Assembly: GCF_964204865.1 (NCBI RefSeq) | Contig: NC_135263.1 | Location: forward strand, 18,149,426-18,213,425 | Direction of reading: 5' to 3' | From: Styela clava | Lineage: Eukaryota; Chordata; Ascidiacea; Stolidobranchia; Styelidae | DNA length: 64,000 bases | Shown: piece after piece, positions 934 through 58,544 of the stretch | Numbering within the stretch: the first letter of the stretch is position 1 | Layout of the letters: each line of letters begins with the position of its first letter | The notes under the pieces: model-generated | Seen by the model: only the letters and a program-made list of their open reading frames with translations | The model's database searches: none | Told to the model about the DNA's origin: nothing | Position numbers and translations under genes: made by a program

Positions 934-3900
934 ATGAGGTCGTTATTCTCATTATTGCGAATATTCTTGTTACTGCAAACCGGACATGCCCACATGCCTA
1001 CTGTCTACGAATTTTGCTCACATGTTGTAGAACAAAGGGGAGTAAACTTGCCATCCTGCGATGCTGCTGTGTGTAAGGGCAGACCTGGTAAAATGGGGCC
1101 TAACGGACCAAAGGGAGACACTGGATTAACAGGGGAAAAGGGCGATGCATGTAACCCCACACCATGCGAAAGGCAACTTGCATCCATGGGTATGTACTTT
1201 GAGAAAAACTTTCAAAATGACAAGAACGAAAATAATAATATCTTGTCAACGATGTTTCATTTGAAGGAAGAAAATATTTCACACTATTTACTTTTTATAG
1301 TTCTACACATTATTCTTTGACACAATAAAAAAAATTCTTGAAACTTCTGTATCAATTTGTTTGGTGAAAAATTGAAAACATGATCTTTTGAAGGCGTAAA
1401 AATTTTAATATATTTGATGCCATAATCCACAAGACTTAATTTTGCTAATTGCCTATTCTCTTTACAAACATCATATACGCCTTAATTATTAAACTTAAAC
1501 TCTTGAGAATTGCTTTTCAAAGATTTTTTTTTAATCGCATTAGTAGTTTGTGCGTTATAATTTAGGATTTTCGTAATAATTTACTCTTTCAAAATTATTA
1601 AATATCTTCAAAAACAACAATTATTTATGTGGTGTTCTTTAGTAGTAATACGATAGAAGTTACCAAAAAATAATAATAACGTGTTTTTGAAACAGCCCTT
1701 CACTGTTCGCTCGGAATAAAATTCCATGATGTACAAGATTATGCAATGACAGCGTCCAGTGACGGAAAGTTGCACCGAGCATATTTTGGAAGACTAGATG
1801 CACAGCCTAACGCCCATTCCTATGGTTCATGGTGTGCCATGGATAATGCTGGTAAAAATATTTAAGTACAAAATTATAAGGATAAGGGTGACAGAAATAA
1901 TAATAGTCGAGGGAGTGTAATACTCGAAAGTATTTCAATATCGGTGATTCACATCCATCCTGGTGAAAAAAACGATCGTTCGTCAGAGTAATATAATATG
2001 ATGTTTTGGGTCTTGCGTGTTATTACGCGTACAAACGGTTGGATCCACATTTATATTTACGCACACAAAGAATGTAGAGACAGCTAACGATTGATGCTAC
2101 AATTATATAAGACATTGAACTTGTTGGTTCGTAATGTCTCAGTATGTATCTGCCACAAGTCACTTGTAATGTAATTATAAATTACCGTGCCGGGGAATCG
2201 ATGGAGAACGCGAGCAATTGTCTTTGTTAGAATGCATATTTGTGTATGTGACTGCATATACATGCCACATTACGAAACCTATTCCAATGTCATTTTGAAT
2301 GGATTTGAACAGTTTTTTTTTGTGATATGCATTTTGTTCATTTATCTTCTTATTTGATATTTGATGGATGACATCGTAGATTTTATCAGGTTTTAATCAA
2401 ATGCAGCATATTTTAAAACTGCCGTGTTCCCAATTCAAGGTCCTGGTTGGATTCAGATAGACTTGGGAAAGCCAAAGTTTGTGGCAGGAATAATGACTCA
2501 AGGACGTCCATATTCTAATGATTGGGTTACTTCATTTGAAGTTGCTTGTGGCTCTAGCCAACAACAGTTAACGACAATTGCTGAAAATGGAATGAACAAG
2601 GTACAAATAGAATATGGTAATAAATTCAACCAAGTTTCTATTTTGAAATAAAATTATATTGAAATGGTCAGAAACACCAATGAAACTATTTACTATAATT
2701 CAGGAATATTCATATAAAGGAGATTTAAAGGTGGAGAGAATATAGAAAAATAAATAGTTAAATTACTAGGATTATGTTTCTTGTTGTATTGAGTTGCTAC
2801 TGTGCAGTTACAGTTTATATTACAGTTTTTAGACTTAATTGAAGACTTTTTTTGTTTGTTGACAGCGAATTATAAATTCGAATTAAAGTGGATCCCAATA
2901 ATTACAATACAATATTCACAACAATTGCAAAATTTGCACGTATTTAAAATCGACTTGCTGGCGTAACTTGTGTTGTAATATAACTGGTTGCCTATTGCTT
3001 CATTTTGGGCCTGCTACATAACTTATTAGCGTTCTGACCAAAGAGAAAATTAAGGTACAAGCGTTAAACACGTTCGGAAACAAATATTGCATGGGTTGCT
3101 ATTGCTACTATTTTGTTCGAAGACTGGGATATCTTGTTTTTTAACATATTTTGTATTACGGTGTTTTGCTTGTTACCTTGTTTAGAAATGGGAAATCTTT
3201 CACTTTAGCGTGAATGCGCATGACTCAGCAAAGTTTTTCTGTAATAAAAAGGATATAAATAGAGATTTTGATCGCAAATTTTATGAATATAATTCCCTTA
3301 GATCAATTGTGGCTGAAGGAACAGCAACGGCAATAAAACATTTAAAAGATATTTTGCAACTTAATTGACTATAAATATACTTTTAAAATAAAGAAATTAT
3401 AGTTTTTTTGCTAGGGTGTCTGGTATATATATGTGTGTACTATACTTTCAACGATATTTTGTATTTTGTTTTTGCTCAAGAAGTATTTTTAATTTTTGTT
3501 CATCTTTCCAGGTATTTTTAGGTAACAGTGATGCAAACACAAAAATTTCTAACATGTTTCCGACATCTTTATCCTGCCGATATGTCAGAATTTTCCCCAA
3601 AACTTGGAATAATAAAAGTTGCATGAGAATCGAGTTGATTACTGGAAACTGCCACGGTTTGTTGCCATTTTGTTTTATAAATTATATCATTTGTTGGGAT
3701 GGGACGTTTTATGCGATGTTTCGCACTGGTATTTTTCAGGTAGGAAATCATATCGGTTTCAAATCAAATCAGCAGGCTATGATGACGGCAATACGTACGA
3801 GCTACGTGTGAATGGGATTGACGTTAACAAAATCAATTATAACAGAGGACATAATATTCTTGTTATAAATTCTCGAACCCTTACTTCAGAAACTCGCGCA

Positions 3901-6145
3901 TTTGACACTTACGAATCAACGAAAGCAGTAAGTTTTTATACAGATTCAATTACGAGTGGAAAATACTTTGGAGATTATGTTAAATACCAAAACTATTAGC
4001 TTTGGTTTGAGTAAATATCTGTCATATATTATTCAAAATTTTTCCATAGTTTGCTGAATGAAAATGTGTGATACTGTATTCTGAAATCTTATGTTTGTGA
4101 ATATTTAAGCAATTATTAAAAACTAGTGCTGAAGTCTTCGCAATGCATTTATATGGATATTTTAAAACCAAGTTTTGATCAAAATGAAAAAAATTGCAAA
4201 CAGGGTAATTTTTTTAACTCATATCCCAATGGCGCATTTATTTGTAAGGCAGTTTTTTTTCATTGCGGCTTATTCTGAAAATATTAATGGCATAAATTAC
4301 CTTAATGAAGGTAAAGAACATGATTTCATACCTAAAAGAAGTACCTTATGGATCTCTGATTGCCATGGCCGTCAGGGATGCAACAACGTCTAGTAGAATG
4401 GACGATGCGGATAAAGCTTTCATGTCTTCTCTTGGTGCCGGTGGAGAGGATTGTCCAATAGAAATAGGTAACTTATAATTTGAATTTAAATGTATATGAT
4501 TAACGTACAAAAACACTATATGAAAAAATATTTCAGGTATCTTTCAAGGCAGAAATTATGCTTCAAGTAATCCAGATTAAATCGGGGATTCCCCGTCCAA
4601 AGTTTAAATACTGTTTTTAGTAATTACCCATTTCTAGTGAAAACTGTATAATTTTTAATATTATTGTAATTTTAGCACGGTTGATTTTGCCTATTGACTG
4701 AAAAACAATCTCGACTGAGTATATACATATCTATGGTACTCTGTACTGGTAACGGTACCGTACTTGTACAAGCGTAGCTGGTAAGCTAGATTACCCATGC
4801 CGTTTACTAGTAATTTTGAATGTTGCCTATTTAATTTAATGTACCTGATTTATCAGTGTGCACAATCTAACACTTCACACCATAACCCCGACTTGTTCAG
4901 CAGTTGGTCTTTTGGTTCTTCGTTGCAATCTCTAGAAATCAACCACCTCCGGTAAGCGATACTCGTTCGGTACTCACCGACAGATTTCAAATTCTAAAAT
5001 TTCGATTTTTTCGTTTTCAAATTAAAAACGTGAACCTTGGGTGTCTCTGCTCGATAACCAGCTTTGGTTCTCCGCAACTTCCTTCCCCAGTAAATATGAG
5101 TAATTATTCTTTTCTCGTAATTTATGTTCAATTGATTTTTTTCATTACTGGTTCAAACTTGACTTGACTTGACTCAAATATAACATTTTGTCAATCGCAA
5201 GTACCAAAATATTGCGATATGGTTGGTGGACTGCTATAAATATATATACAGCTAAATATCTGCATATCGAGACAACTTATATACATATACAACCAAACAA
5301 ATATGAATATACTATACAGCCAATTTCATATGTATATACAGCCAATTCAATGTAAAAATACAGCCATTCAAGTGACACACAACCACATACAATCAATCCA
5401 TCATACATATATGCACGCTATATACCTGGACATGTTAAGAGGTCATATTGCCCCACTTCAGCTGATTAAAAACTCTTATATGAAAACCATAACGCTATTG
5501 AACGAAATATGAAAAAACTAGCGTAACTCAATATGCATATGCACCCATGATGTACATACAAAATTCAATGTCATATGCACATACATTCAACTTATTATGC
5601 ATATACGGCATTTAAACCAATGTATAAATGTAAGCAATGTATGTGTATATAGACAACTCAAGGTGCATATTAGTGGAGGTTACGTGAGACCAATTCCCAA
5701 TCCCCTCCCAATCCCCAATCCCGGGATAAATATGGAAATCCTATCCTATCCCCTTCCTCAATGCCTTTATGCTAGTGGATTCGTAGGCGTATAATGCAAG
5801 TACGCTTTAGCAAAAACAAACATGGCCATACTATGGCACACCAACACATATGTATTTCTGTAACTTTTCGTCTGACCAAAATCAGACTTCCTTAGCTTCC
5901 GTTCTACATAGCAAATAAATATAGTAAATAAGCACACTATAGAAAGGGAATGAATAGTTTGTAAAGCAATGCAATTTAGCGATTGTAGTCAATGTATCAA
6001 ACTTTTTTCAGCCCCCCGAGACTCGTGGGCTTTTCTTACACAAAAAGTGATGCCCGGAACTAAATTCCCTGAATGGAAAAACTGCTCACATACTCCAAGA
6101 TACGAAGGAATCGCTGAAATAAAGTCAAGCGTTATTTTAGGTTAG
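934..6145 (+). CDS. Secreted collagen-like / F5/8C (discoidin) / ILEI (FAM3-like) protein
   Basis: Exons 934-1189, 1696-1851, 2407-2600, 3512-3656, 3740-3927, 4311-4467 and 6012-6145 join in consistent phase (1,1,0,1,0,1) into about 409 residues. Residues 1-19 look like a signal peptide. Residues 49-72 are eight uninterrupted Gly-X-Y triplets flanked by cysteines, a short collagen rod that could trimerise. Residues ~88-250 form an F5/8C domain: SLGI near the start, TASSDG, GWIQIDLG, MTQGR, YVRIFP and a final ELITGNC. Residues ~253-405 match the ILEI/FAM3 fold: NRGHNILVI, FDTYES, then SLIAMAVRDA, FMSSLGA, RDSWAFL and RYEG. FAM3 proteins are secreted; the related POMGNT1 stem domain and many F5/8C domains bind glycans, so a glycan-recognition role is inferred, not shown. 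The ATG is the first in frame before the signal peptide. The stop is in exon 7; splicing at 6140 to an acceptor at 6236 would instead add about 12 residues and stop at 6274, with AATAAA at 6399-6404. Confidence 0.85.
5240..5660. repeat. Degenerate tandem repeat, TATACAGCCAA family
   Basis: About 420 bp of imperfect short tandem repeats built on TATACAGCCAATTCAATATG-like units. The same motif recurs at 30410-30530 and, in opposite orientation, at 39820-40290. It lies in the last long intron of the collagen/F5/8C/ILEI gene. The open frames in it are repeat artefacts. Confidence 0.6.
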
Positions 6146-35553: not shown

Positions 35554-37379
35554 GGGGAAAGTGAAGAGGTATGGGCCACCAAACTTTGGAGGGCCACACC
35601 GCTTTGGCCCTTTGAACTAAATATTCACTTTTTTACCCACTGAATGTTTAACAAAACAGCTAACTATTCCCAGCATTGTTTTGGAGTTTTCAGAAGTAGT
35701 TTTGGAAAAAAATGTATTTTTCCACAAAAATGTAATTTACACAAAAAAAATTTATCATCTGAGGTATGGGCCAGGCAGTGTCAAGTATGGGCCACCATAA
35801 AAAAACTAGAACCCAGTGCTTATTGTGAAATACAATTTTACTCAATCCCAAACCCCATGAGTTAACACAGTTTCTACAATCAATAAAGCTGTTTTTTAAA
35901 TAAGGCATAGGTAATATGTAACGAAATTATCATCAATCATAGAATAGCCAGTATTCATATATATCCTGGAAATTTGCAGCACAGCTTTGTCTCATTTGCA
36001 TTCACAGTCCCCATAAATTTGTATGTCACTGCTCTGTCTCTAGTGAGTGCTGGATCTTTTAAACAGCGGACAAGATTATCCAAATCTATTTCAAAGATGT
36101 CACTTTCTGAGCTGTCTAACAATGCTACTGTTAAATCACTGTTGACGAATTATATGATTATTCCTGTCTTCCCGCTTTTTTACCTTGCTTTACTTTTTTT
36201 CTTAAATGCTTCTTATTAATTGAATTCTTTTCTATCTACCTTTGCAAGAGTTGTACTTTTGGACGGGGGCTTTTGGCAATGCCGTATAATTTCTGGGGAA
36301 ACGACCATCCGTGATGATCCAGGCAGGTCATCTGATTTGTCAGGAGATATACATTACATTGCAGAAACATGAAAGAATGGCGAAAAATAAAGACATTCTT
36401 ATTATACACTACATTTCCCTAGGTCACTATCCCCGTTCATATTATAGAATAGCCAGTATTCATATATATCCTGGAAATTTGCAGCACAGCTTTGTCTCAT
36501 TTGCATTCACAGTCCCCATAAATTTGTATGTCACTGCTCTGTCTCTAGTGAGTGCTGGATCTTTTAAACAGCAGACAAGATTATCCAAATCTATTTCAAA
36601 GATGTCACTTTCTGAGCTGTCTAACAATGCTACTGTTAAATCACTGTTGACGAATTATATGATTATTCCTGTCTTCCCGCTTTTTTACCTTGCTTTACTT
36701 TTTTTCTTAAATGCTTCTTATTAATTGAATTCTTTTCTATCTACCTTTGCAAGAGTTGTACTTTTGGACGGGGGCTTTTGGCAATGCCGTATAATTTCTG
36801 GGGAAACGACCATCCGTGATGATCCAGGCAGGTCATCTGATTTGTCAGGAGATATACATTACATTGCAGAAACATGAAAGAATGGCGAAAAATAAAGACA
36901 TTCTTATTATACACTACATTTCCCTAGGTCACTATCCCCGTTCATATTGATTAACACGACTACCGACATGGTATGGGCAGGCCCATACCTCAGCATCCAA
37001 AATGGCCCATACCTCAGACACCCTACCCGCCATGTTTTCAGACAAAATTTGATTACAAAAAAAATAAGCTGTTTCATTCAACACTCTCTTTAACAGGACC
37101 AAGACACAGGTTCCTAGGCCTTTGACAGATTTTATTAAAGAACCACAACTGATTGTGCTATCCCAAATATTCTAATTTTTCAAAAAAAAGCTTTTACTAC
37201 AAGAAATCATTTAGTACCTCATAGCTGAGACACCTTGTAAGCTGCTGACCTGCAAATAACATGTGTTATTTGGTGGGACTTATGCAATAATCACACCAAG
37301 TTACAGATGATTGGGATATTTTAAAGCTGTTGAACTTGCAATGGCCCACACCTCAAGGTGGCCCATACCTCTCCACTCT
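35554..37379 (-). mobile_element. Pogo-like element inserted at TA, with internal tandem duplication
   Basis: The ends are inverted: AGTGAAGAGGTATGGGCCAC at the left and AGTGGAGAGGTATGGGCCAC on the opposite strand at the right. TA flanks both sides (35552-35553, 37380-37381), and the minisatellite unit it interrupts is seen uninterrupted near 37495, which fixes the target. The minus strand carries a short frame, MVVSPEIIRHCQKPPSKSTT, resembling the 'P..I.P.PKA..RK' linker after the DDE domain of pogo/Tigger transposases. It is present twice because of a 505-bp tandem duplication. Motif GGTATGGGCC recurs subterminally (35762, 35786, 36970, 37000, 37350), like transposase-binding repeats. No catalytic domain remains. 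Confidence 0.6.
35939..36948. repeat. Near-perfect 505-bp tandem duplication
   Basis: 35939-36443 and 36444-36948 are aligned with a constant 505-bp offset. I see one difference (CAGCGGACAAG against CAGCAGACAAG), so the duplication is recent or an assembly artefact. The paired plus-strand frames beginning near 35974 and 36479 are antisense copies of the pogo-like segment. Confidence 0.85.
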
Positions 37380-47154: not shown

Positions 47155-49261
47155 TCATTGTTTTAAAAGCATGTGTCTAACAAAAGCTACTATGAAACAC
47201 ATTATTATAAGTATTGGGGGAACGATACATCCAATAATGAAGTCACGTCCAAACATCGGATCCAAACCAATTATCATTTCATTTATGGACTGATGTATAT
47301 TGGAAGTGTTGAATCCTGATAGACCGACATACCCCGATAAATCTCCCGTAACCACTCCGTGACGTATCCTTTTTTCCACAGATTGCATTGCTCCTTGACT
47401 TATTACTTTTATAAATTTTTGTGGACTATGGATGATATGTGAGGATCCCGCGGCGTAAGAAACCATTCCCATCGTTGCCGTCCATGCTAAAAAGTCAATT
47501 AATACTTTATTAACGCAAACTCCGCTTGCATTCTTAAAAATTCAGTAAATATTAGAATACTGTACCGGTATTTACAGAAGAAGTAGTATCCAGCGTAATC
47601 ACAGACTGCGCTATTTCAGTTATTCATCCTGATTTTAAGTTCATGAAATTTTCACATTTCCAAACATATGAAAACAGTCAAATGTAATTTACTTACTCGC
47701 GTTGACCAGCAAAATCAAGGCAATTTTTATGTGTCTTTGAGTTCTGAGCATTTGCTTCCGTGTTTTTGTTTCTCGACAAATTGTTAAAATAATTGGGATC
47801 ATAAATGTCAAGCAGCTCACAATGGAAATCATCAGAAAAATGGCACAGAAAATAACAGAGCCTGATGACACTGAATCAAAGTAAATTAAGTTCGCTCATT
47901 ATCAAGAAACATAACAAATAAATATTATAATAAATACCATTATATAACAAGTATTACCCAGTACCAGTAGCGACACTGAAGTTTGTGAGAGAATCGCTTG
48001 ATTTCAATCTATGCGAAAATGAAATATCAGGAAATAATAATATTAACAAAAGAAACATGCTTGAATTTATAGACACGAAAGTCAAATGACTAAGATAGCC
48101 TATTATGCTATCTACTCATATATATACTTGTTATCTGATCATTCGAATACTCAAGTCGAAAATCACAAATCAAATCCGATAACGTAGCAATTCACGTCAA
48201 TGCCCGTGTGGCCTCACTGTCTGTAGAAGAGGTGGCGGACTTATCGGAAATCGATGATGGAATGCTAACATTAAAAATCAAAAAAGTGTTAACGCGAAGT
48301 GAAATAAAACAGAAAGTTTTGGGTGAAATATCGGTTTCCGTAAGCCTCGGCAAAAATTAATCAAATAAATAACGTAGTCGCCTTCAATAAAATTTGATCC
48401 ATAGATAACTCACTATTAACTTCCAATGATATACTCGTTAAGTCTCCGAATTTTACAGATAACTGGAAAAGCCCACAATGCAAGCATATTTTGCTTCCTC
48501 TGAGCTTCGAAACTATGTTGTTAAAACGTTCTTTCAAATCCTCATTGGAAACTTGCAAGGAATTGAGTTGTTCATGAATGGGGTCAAATGCAATGCATCC
48601 CTGAAAAAACGAAAATGGATGGTCTTGTTGTAAGTAACGGACTGTAATTAAATGGATGAGTGAAACAGACATGATTTCTTTAATAAAAACCTCTGTATTT
48701 ATTTCCAGTACGGTCTAAAATACCATTCCATTAAAATGACTTCCTCAATAAAAACCTCTGCATTTATTACCAGTACGGTCTAAAGTACCATTGCATTAAA
48801 ATGACTTCCTCATTAATGTGCGCACGGACTATGACATGTTTTCATATACACGCAGCATTATATATTACCATATGTTGCAGCAATTATTAGAAATTTTGAA
48901 TGAAATAAAAGACACCACTATATAAAAATTACATATAAAAATAATAATATTAGGATGATAGATGCCCTGATTAGGTTACAAAAATATATAAATACTACTT
49001 AGCAGAGTTTTTAAATGTGGGGAAAAGCCACTGGGCGTCTGTAATTGAAATTATTTTGTAAACTCTTTTACGCTAATGTATATGTCGACGTATCATTTCA
49101 TGTATACACAACCTTTCTAACATGCTTCGTTACGTGCAAACATAGAAGATTTATTAACTTACATTTATCCAATCCGTTGAAGACATGGCAAAAATCATTA
49201 GTAAACATGCTACCGATGTAAATGATACGGCAATAGTATATGATCTTTTAAATTTGTTCAT
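47155..49261 (-). CDS. Claudin/PMP22-like four-transmembrane protein, gene C
   Basis: Minus-strand exons 49163-49261, 48414-48600, 47697-47870 and 47155-47486 join in phases 0,1,1 to give about 263 residues. Exon 1 encodes a basic N-terminus and TM1 ending SSTDWI. Exon 2 encodes the first extracellular loop with ICLHCGLFQL, in the position of the Gly-Leu-Trp/Cys signature of claudins. Exon 3 holds TM2 and a basic cytosolic loop; exon 4 holds TM3, a long second loop with EKRIRHG, TM4 and a tail ending HMLLKQ. The claudin Trp and second Cys are not canonical, so the claudin/PMP22 superfamily is preferred over claudin proper. Genes A and B share every intron position, so this is a diverged paralogue. 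The function, probably at cell contacts or in membrane organisation, is inferred from the fold only. Confidence 0.78.
48139..48360 (+). other. 74-codon open frame antisense in intron 2 of gene C
   Basis: The plus frame from after a TGA to TAA 48358-48360 has alternating hydrophobic patterning (NVAIHVNARVASLSVEEVAD, GMLTLKIKKVL, GEISVSVSL), suggesting beta strands as in many extracellular domains. It has no early ATG, and the acceptor-like CTCAAG upstream is weak. I do not recognise the family; it could be a relic exon or chance. Confidence 0.25.
48675..48812. repeat. Tandem duplication, 65-bp unit
   Basis: AATAAAAACCTCTG.ATTTAT.CCAGTACGGTCTAAA.TACCATT.CATTAAAATGACTTCCTCA occurs twice in tandem with a 65-bp offset, plus the start of a third unit. 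It is in intron 1 of gene C. Confidence 0.75.
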
Positions 49262-54122: not shown

Positions 54123-55482
54123 TTAGAGTTCCATGGAGCTTGACCCGACATAAGGCTGTCTAAGTAGAGCCTGTTTTGCAACTCCAGTGAATATCGCGGA
54201 TATGATGAAGAAAACCGCTGAAAGCCACCCCAGATAGAATGCGTATCCATACATTGGATCCATTCCGTCGAATATCGTACTCATCATTTTCTTCAGGCCT
54301 TCATCGAGGCCCAAACCATCAAGGCTGATATCTCTTTTCCCTCTTCCCCCTGGTAGTTGTTGTTGGAATACAGAACTCAAACTCTTACCCATGTTTGCCA
54401 TGAACAGCAGAGGATTGTGAACAGTTTGAGCGGTTCCCCCTGTGTACGCGGCCATACCAATGATTGTGGACAGCGCTACAATAAAAAAGACCATATTATC
54501 TTAGGTGTAGGTATTTTATTGAAACCGCCACAACATCAGCTAGAATAGACTACTGTAAAAGAATATATTTTAAAATGCGCGAGGTGCTGAAGGCTTTGCG
54601 ATTAACATTGGTAAATGAATACACGCTTTTATGTATATATTACCTGTCATCATGAGACATAAAAGCCCCAATCGAGTAAGTTTAGCCACTTTATTCTTGC
54701 TATCGTAAGAACCTTGCTCCCTGCTGATTGCAACTATCAGGATAATTCCACCAATCACTCCGAAAACAAGTGCTCCCACCAAATTTACAGCTCCGAACAC
54801 GATGCTTCTTGACATGCTGGTAACTAAAAAGGATCAGAATTTTTACTTAAACTAAATATTACATTATTATTACGAGTATTTCAAATTTACGCAACTAGGC
54901 AAAACTTGTGTTGTGAATACTCAAAATAGTGGGTTCCGCTTAAAGCTAAATAAATGCCACTTACTGAATACTATTTACACATCTTATTAAAATAATGTTA
55001 TAGCGTCCTCAGTTTTGCATGCACCTCGGAATTCCCAAATTTGGCAAAAGTATATTGTTGAATTTATTGGCCAATAATTCTCAAACTCACTGTTAATCCC
55101 CAGGTTCACGTTCATCAGATTTCCAGCTACCATTGTCAGTTTCAACAAACCATGATGTACACAAAGGTTCGTCCCTTTTACCATCTGCGTTCCGGAGTCA
55201 AATTGACGTTTTTGTTCCTCGGTCATAAATCCGCTGGACGCGTATTTTGTCGCTTTGAGAATGTTATCATATTTCATGCAGGCCTTCAAAATATTTTACA
55301 TTTAGTAGTCACATGGTTAAGGGTGCAGAAAAGTGACTGAAACGTCTACACAATCTACCGAACTATTAATATTAATAAAAACTTACGACCATCCACGACG
55401 CTGAGGAAATTGCCACAATGAGCATAATACAACCCAAAGCAACGCAGGATATTGCAGAAACGTGAAATTTCTTCCAAGCCAT
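54123..55482 (-). CDS. Claudin/PMP22-like four-transmembrane protein, gene A
   Basis: Exons 55387-55482, 55091-55283, 54644-54823 and 54123-54475 (phases 0,1,1) encode about 273 residues. TM1 lies in exon 1 (CVALGCIMLIVAISSASW). Loop 1 carries LCVHHGLLKLTM. TM2 is VGALVFGVIGGIILIVAI, TM3 spans the exon 3/4 junction, and TM4 is YGYAFYLGWLSAVFFIISAI, close to the claudin TM4 'G.alylGW'. Loop 2 contains GRGKRDISL, a basic site that a proprotein convertase could cut. The C-terminus is short (SSSMEL). An acceptor (GATAGCTATTTCAG) just upstream of the ATG suggests a 5' UTR intron. ATG 55482 is the first codon of exon 1 in frame with TM1. Family membership is by fold and motif; function unproven. 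Confidence 0.83.
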
Positions 55483-57212: not shown

Positions 57213-58544
57213 TTAGAGTTTCACAGAGCTTGCCCCGGCATAAGGCTGTCTAAGTAGAGACTGCTTTGCAACTCCAGTGAAGATCGCGGATATCACGAGG
57301 AAAACCGCCGAAACCCATCCCAGATAGAATGCGTATCCATACATGGGATCCATTCCCTCGAACATCGTACTCATCATTTGCTTCATGTCTTCATCAAGGC
57401 CCAAACCATCAAGACTGATATCTCTTTTCCCTCTTCCCATTGGTAGTTGTTGTTGGAATACAGAACTCAAGCTCTGGCCCATGCTTGCCATGAACAGCAG
57501 AGGATTGTGAACAGCTTGAGCGGTTCCCCCTGTGTATGCGGCCATACCAATGACTGTGCAAATCCCTGCAATACAAAGTCCATATTACCCTGGGTTTGGG
57601 TATTTTATTGAAACCCCCAGAACATCAGCTAGAATAGATCTCTAGAAAAGCATTTATATGAATATGCGCGAGGTGCTGAAGGCTATTTCTTTTAATTTTG
57701 GTAAATGAATAAAATGCTTGCATGTGCTTATATTACCTGCAACCGTGAGAACTATCAGCCCTGATCGAGTACGTTGAGCTACTTTACTCTTGCCATCGTA
57801 AGAACCTTGCTCCCCGCCGATAGCAACGATCAGGATAATTCCACCAATCACTCCGAGAACAAGTGCTACCACCAAAATAAAAGCTCCGAACATGGTGCTT
57901 CTTGGCATGCTGGTAACTAAAAAAATCAGAATATTTTTTACCAAGACTAAATATTTACGAGATTATTTCAATTTAAGCAAATAGGCAACACTTGCCTAAA
58001 GCTAAATGATTACCACTTACTGAATATTATTTACGCGCAATGAAAATACAAACGCATCTTATTAAAATAAAGTTTTAGCGTCCTCAGTTCCGCATGCTCT
58101 TCGAAATTCCCAAATTTGGCAAAACAATATTGTTGAACTTAATAGCCAATGATTCTTAAAACTCACTGTCAATCCCCATGTTCACGTTCATAATATTTCC
58201 AGCTGCCATTGTCAGTTTTAACAAACCATGATGCACACAAAAGTCCGTTCCTTTTAGCATCTGCACTCCCAAGTCAAATTGATCTTTTTGTTCCTCGGTC
58301 ATAGGTTCACTCGAAAAGCCTTTCATCGCTTTGAAAATGTTATCATATTTCATGCAGGCCTTCAAAAATTTTCACATTTAGCGGTTACAGGGTTAGGGGT
58401 GCAGAGAAGTAATTGAAAAGAAACGTCTAATAATAATAAAGTACTTACGACCATCCATGACGCTGAGGAAATTGCCACAATAAGCATAATACACCCCAAA
58501 GCAACGCAGGATATTGCACAAACGTGAAAAGTTTTCCAAGACAT
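57213..58544 (-). CDS. Claudin/PMP22-like four-transmembrane protein, gene B
   Basis: Exons 58449-58544, 58167-58359, 57737-57916 and 57213-57565, with the same lengths and phases as gene A, encode about 273 residues. TM1 (CVALGCIMLIVAISSASW), the loop 1 motif FCVHHGLLKLTM, TM2, the loop 2 basic site MGRGKRDISL and TM4 (YGYAFYLGWVSAVFLVISAI) are all kept. Differences cluster in loop 1 (GFSSEPMTEEQKDQF against YASSGFMTEEQKRQF), the intracellular loop and the C-terminal tail (ASSVKL against SSSMEL). All splice signals are intact and there are no stops, so both duplicates appear functional. The upstream TATA-bearing block of gene A is not found above B, so the promoters may differ. Confidence 0.83.

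Follow-up and report, generated by a model that had tools for sequence, protein, structure and literature searches.

A gene of the ascidian Styela clava that probably joins a short collagen-like stem and an F5/8C domain to an ILEI domain, read as a candidate lectin-like protein

Introduction

Does one gene of the ascidian Styela clava encode a collagen-like stem, an F5/8C domain and an ILEI domain in a single secreted protein, and by which route could the third part have joined the first two? The question is raised by a locus at positions 934-6145 (plus strand) of a 64,000-nucleotide stretch of DNA, here called the window, which covers positions 18,149,426 to 18,213,425 of contig NC_135263.1 in assembly GCF_964204865.1. 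The original prediction, made from the letters of this stretch, described a collagen rod with an F5/8C domain and a FAM3/ILEI domain, and proposed an innate recognition or matrix protein. The reading preferred here, at a probability of roughly one half, is that of a secreted, probably trimeric, lectin-like collagen-F5/8C protein that would have gained an ILEI head.

Gene model and domains

The gene can be modelled as seven exons that encode 398 residues plus a stop in a single frame (Table 1). All six introns are bounded by GT-AG, and their phases, in order, are 1, 1, 0, 1, 0 and 1, which bears out the predicted joins, coordinates and phase agreement. Pfam finds the domains in the predicted order, with F5_F8_type_C (PF00754) at residues 103-233 (77.6 bits, cut-off 28.2, E-value 1.2e-21) and ILEI (PF15711) at residues 275-366 (60.4 bits, cut-off 27, E-value 2.5e-16). 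Both lie far above their cut-offs, and chance domain matches are ruled out by the E-values. The nearest solved structures to the F5/8C domain are coagulation factors V and VIII and lactadherin, proteins with membrane-binding C domains. Given that the N-terminus is hydrophobic and signal-peptide-like and that no strongly hydrophobic helix follows it, the product is likely secreted. The gene model is well formed and, on genomic evidence alone, the fusion is very probably real.

Table 1. Parts of the gene, with positions in the window
Feature	Position	Strand	Content
exon 1	934..1189	+	start hydrophobic and signal-peptide-like; N-terminal motif with three cysteines; 8 Gly-X-Y triplets; donor phase 1
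short collagen-like stretch	1078..1149, residues 49-72	+	8 Gly-X-Y triplets
exon 2	1696..1851	+	F5/8C domain, first part
exon 3	2440..2600	+	F5/8C domain, middle
exon 4	3512..3656	+	F5/8C end with last cysteine C238; donor within codons that are the last ones in paralogues
intron 4	3657..3739	+	83 nucleotides; starts within the old terminal codons (GGT TTG TTG); stop codon of paralogues absent
exon 5	3740..3927	+	ILEI module, first part; holds Arg275
exon 6	4311..4467	+	ILEI module, middle; holds Asp325 and Cys350
exon 7	6012..6145	+	ILEI module, end; holds Arg357, Cys379 and stop TAG

Exons 1, 2 and 4 each end in phase 1 and exon 5 begins in phase 1, so that exon skipping could yield an in-frame collagen-ILEI form.

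A collagen-F5/8C family without the ILEI domain

An exon-by-exon search of the window's own assembly (376.6 Mb) with the protein returned 105 matching places; these and the following counts are lower bounds. N-terminal exons account for 32 of the places, including that of the window (31 others, counted from the match table), and many of them are clustered on contigs C13, C16 and C4. All 17 of the 31 that were read share with the window gene a signal-like start, the motif M-x-x-x-x-E-F-C and a short Gly-X-Y stretch, and in at least two of the 17 (L016 and L024) the collagen stretch contains in-frame stops, such that these copies look broken. One paralogue could be spliced from L020 and L031. 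It has a signal-like start, a short collagen stretch and an F5/8C domain of 82.6 bits, and it stops right after that domain, whereas the window gene continues into ILEI. No ILEI domain was found beside the paralogue exons in the genome searches for ILEI. By this comparison, the collagen-F5/8C part is evidently a large family, and ILEI is the addition, neither of which could be read from the stretch itself.

Contigs C1, C2, C6 and C18 carry F5/8C exons with no listed N-terminal match on the same contig, that of the window itself on C18 excepted; some of the terminal F5/8C exons compared below may therefore belong to other stems. In a tree of exon 4, built from 51 retained columns of the window exon and 34 distinct relatives, the window gene found no definite position, and its end branch is the longest. 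F5/8C exons with identical translations occur on C2 (17569866, 17582126 and 17594387, spaced by about 12.26 kb) and on C4 (2735751, 2985038 and 3231634, spaced by about 250 kb), which may reflect either recent segmental duplication or duplication in the assembly.

A missing stop and a probable new splice donor

The end of exon 4 was compared with the terminal F5/8C exons at all 42 other places in the genome match list, which give 35 distinct translations. In 39 of the 42, the stop comes no more than six residues on when the count starts at the last cysteine, and the endings include CHGLL (seven exons), CHDMF (seven) and CHDLF (six). Exon 4 of the window has the same codons, TGC CAC GGT TTG TTG (C-H-G-L-L), but no stop there; read straight on, it stays open as far as 3811, which is 51 codons after Cys-His. 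What carries weight is that the stops share a position, since a downstream stop is expected by chance in AT-rich DNA. The donor CACG|GTTTGT sits inside the old terminal codons and the ILEI acceptor lies 83 nucleotides on, and the tail lost by the window gene amounts to only a few residues after the last cysteine of F5/8C.

These features suggest a route by which the fusion could have arisen, although the order of its steps is inferred. The gene would have started as an ordinary member of the collagen-F5/8C family. The stop just after the last cysteine of F5/8C would have been lost, splicing would have begun at a donor within the former terminal codons, and this would have joined on the three-exon ILEI module that lies 83 nucleotides downstream.

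Origin of the ILEI head

A search of the genome for the ILEI family gives four places: two FAM3 genes on C9, one exon on C13 and the window. The two canonical FAM3 genes are adjacent and intronless. The C13 exon (L003) is POMGnT1-like, and a POMGnT1 match (1.7e-8) lies next to it, upstream and on its strand. When the ILEI half of the window gene was used as a protein query, one further module appeared, at C9:6455077-6456613 (L077).

This C9 module consists of three exons with the same phases as exons 5-7 and with aligned boundaries, the second to within a one-residue gap. The window ILEI half and the C9 module are identical at 64 of 154 aligned residues. In exons 5 and 6 together, codon positions 1, 2 and 3 agree at 71, 72 and 41 of 111 codons, and in exon 7 at 24, 30 and 18 of 43; third positions are thus the most changed, as expected under constraint at the protein level. 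Cys350 and Cys379 are present in both modules, and neither canonical FAM3 has both, although one of them has a cysteine in the Cys350 column.

The two modules differ in their surroundings, given that the C9 module sits on the same strand 3' of several MAM exons (assigned by Pfam within C9:6447001-6457000) and not behind collagen-F5/8C. The second half of the last MAM domain was not found between the MAM exons and the C9 ILEI module, so that the MAM-ILEI join there is only a candidate. An exon farther upstream looks LDLa-like by eye.

A direct origin of the head from the canonical FAM3 pair can be rejected, as that pair is intronless over ILEI. An origin from POMGnT1 is likewise rejected, because the L003 exon is uninterrupted where exons 5 and 6 of the window gene meet. 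No relative of the ILEI half turned up in a scan of viral contigs.

We tentatively propose that the tunicate three-exon ILEI module may be a shuffled sugar-binding head that was placed on unrelated extracellular stems, collagen-F5/8C in the window and MAM on C9. In the window it would form an undescribed soluble collagenous lectin, and the locus would preserve the route of the fusion, with the stop lost and the last codons turned into a donor.

Sugar-contact residues and a possible lectin-like role

Searched against solved structures, the ILEI half matches FAM3A (2.3e-8), FAM3C (4.2e-6) and the POMGnT1 stem (2e-5); the same search gave a chance-looking chitinase match (2.4e-4) and weaker matches to FAM3B and a cell-surface hyaluronidase. 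The POMGnT1 stem is reported to bind beta-linked N-acetylglucosamine (GlcNAc), with Arg129, Asp179 and Arg207 directly involved; the same paper describes these residues as conserved in FAM3 members and GlcNAc as bound by FAM3A and FAM3C (PMC9802357). Arg275, Asp325 and Arg357 of the window protein align with these three residues, where the numbering of the POMGnT1 chain was deduced from the spacing of the three and fits exactly. The four ILEI modules aligned from this genome all carry them unchanged.

A molecular picture can be built on this alignment. The N-terminal cysteines and the eight Gly-X-Y triplets would probably trimerise the chains, each of which would bear two heads, F5/8C first and ILEI after it. 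For the ILEI head, the most likely ligands would be sugars of the GlcNAc type, like those that the POMGnT1 stem, FAM3A and FAM3C are reported to bind. With its two heads brought together in threes by a short collagen stem flanked by cysteines, the protein would be multivalent and lectin-like and would act in recognition or bridging. For such a lectin-like role, we put the odds at about even.

Circumstantial support for the role comes from other reports on tunicates. Five coagulation factor 5/8 domains are reported among transcripts of an allorejection library from Botryllus (PMC2527998), and ficolins and mannose-binding lectin with collagen domains have been reported from tunicates (PMC11312191).

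Comparison with known proteins

The window protein shares the ILEI domain with the FAM3 family (FAM3A-D), and a stretch at its C-terminus can likewise be aligned to FAM3A and FAM3C. FAM3 proteins stand alone, whereas exons 5-7 of the gene model follow F5/8C in phase. Compared with both canonical genes, the window ILEI half lacks the cysteines of their S-I-C and C-I-P motifs and those of their N-terminal segment; when the preceding C-H-G is included, only the last cysteine of F5/8C falls on the first canonical FAM3 cysteine. The POMGnT1 stem shares an ILEI-type domain whose three GlcNAc-contact residues are kept in the window, but POMGnT1 is a Golgi enzyme, and the local POMGnT1-like exon is not divided as the window module is.

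Ficolins and collectins have much longer collagen than the window protein. Neither a fibrinogen-like nor a C-type lectin head is present among the four Pfam families with E-values up to 1, and identity as a ficolin or collectin is rejected for want of a defining head. What is shared with these proteins is the layout of a collagen stem that bears recognition heads, which is known in tunicates (PMC11312191). Of the original prediction, the domain order, the joins and the ILEI match are supported. Its collectin- and ficolin-like reading stands as a conjecture, given that the collagen is very short and that neither group is defined by heads of these types. No description of a collagen-F5/8C-ILEI protein was found in the titles and abstract openings of the open-licence papers listed, in several searches a small part of those that matched, by which its absence from print is weakly supported.

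Weighing the alternatives

Several observations weigh against the preferred reading, in its fusion or in its lectin-like role. The collagen match at residues 49-72 reaches 19.9 bits (Pfam cut-off 27.2), and the term collagen rod overstates a stretch of this length. The matching place in four paralogues (the spliced one and three N-termini) scores 19.5-23.0 bits, also below the cut-off, and because the paralogues score alike, the stretch is, by this measure, a conserved short collagen-like region. The paralogues have a coiled-coil-like LEERIRELE tail after the collagen, where the window gene instead has a stretch with two cysteines. Among the terminal exons, L044 stops after 14 residues (cysteine counted), and L049 and L054 stop ahead of the cysteine. 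By a simple splice matrix, the exon-4 donor ACG|GTTTGT scores lowest of the six, within the top 12.2% of all GTs in the window. Exon 4 left unspliced belongs to an open frame at 3392-3811, so that a longer unspliced form could exist. Finally, the contact residues make up only three of 14 invariant columns and may be kept for the fold, in which case binding does not follow from them.

The weak donor and the open frame past the old stop would also fit a locus divided into two transcription units: exons 1-4 would form a complete collagen-F5/8C gene, and exons 5-7 an ILEI gene with a further exon, so far overlooked, in introns 1-4 or before them. The entire ILEI profile is contained in exons 5-7, and exon 4 has an AATAAA at 3611, though many occur in this AT-rich stretch. 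The frame at 3392-3811 even has a methionine and hydrophobic residues just upstream of exon 4, but it would encode only the last part of F5/8C. Such a division, which the original prediction had named as the outcome that would speak against it, is made quite improbable by the 83 nucleotides and matching phases between exons 4 and 5, by the missing old stop, and by the frame that enters exon 5 (3616-3999), which has no methionine ahead of the ILEI part. Intron 4 contains neither AATAAA nor ATTAAA, and no signal-peptide exon that fits exon 5 was recognised by eye among the open reading frames of at least 50 amino acids. That the gene is decaying, with a functionless fusion left by drift, is very improbable: the longest end branch, the lost stop and the broken-looking relatives fit decay, but none of the seven exons is interrupted, no splice site is damaged and the scores of both domains are good.

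If the fused protein is made, its heads could instead tether the short collagen stem to glycans of the matrix or the cell surface, as a structural or adhesive protein of matrix or tunic with no part in non-self recognition. F5/8C domains are known from proteins of the matrix and of cell adhesion, and matrix proteins, too, can form large tandem families. This is an unlikely reading but a serious one, as none of the present findings separates it from recognition. A signalling ligand, with an ILEI head like that of secreted FAM3 clustered by the stem, is improbable. FAM3A is the closest solved sequence, but the cysteines common to both canonical FAM3 genes are missing from the window ILEI half, which has the Cys350 and Cys379 pair in common with the C9 module, a pair complete in neither FAM3 gene.

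Neighbouring features

Related repeat copies lie upstream of exon 1 (573-824) and in intron 6 (5752-5895), with arms that are 81-88% complementary, and probably represent a transposable element. Rfam and tRNA scans of the whole window gave no match. The minus-strand exons at 47155-47541, 54123-54500 and 57213-57584 look mutually related; the latter two bear a sub-threshold resemblance to PMP22/claudin membrane proteins (20.1 and 23.1 bits; cut-off 26.7), and 47155-47541 has no profile match. Local duplication has left the open frames at 35911-36219 and 36290-36724 with about 90 near-identical residues in common. Elsewhere in the genome, a GT2 match (C9:16177301) is followed 2.1 kb later on its strand by a GH6 match (C9:16179895); a cellulose synthase with a GH6 domain is a hallmark of tunicates.

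Implications

If the lectin-like reading is true, a many-membered secreted collagen-F5/8C family with a member that gained ILEI would be a candidate recognition repertoire in this ascidian. With 42 related exons at hand for comparing the former stop and the new donor, the locus would also show legibly how a domain can be gained. In addition, the protein would test ILEI domains as sugar-binding modules outside FAM3 and POMGnT1.

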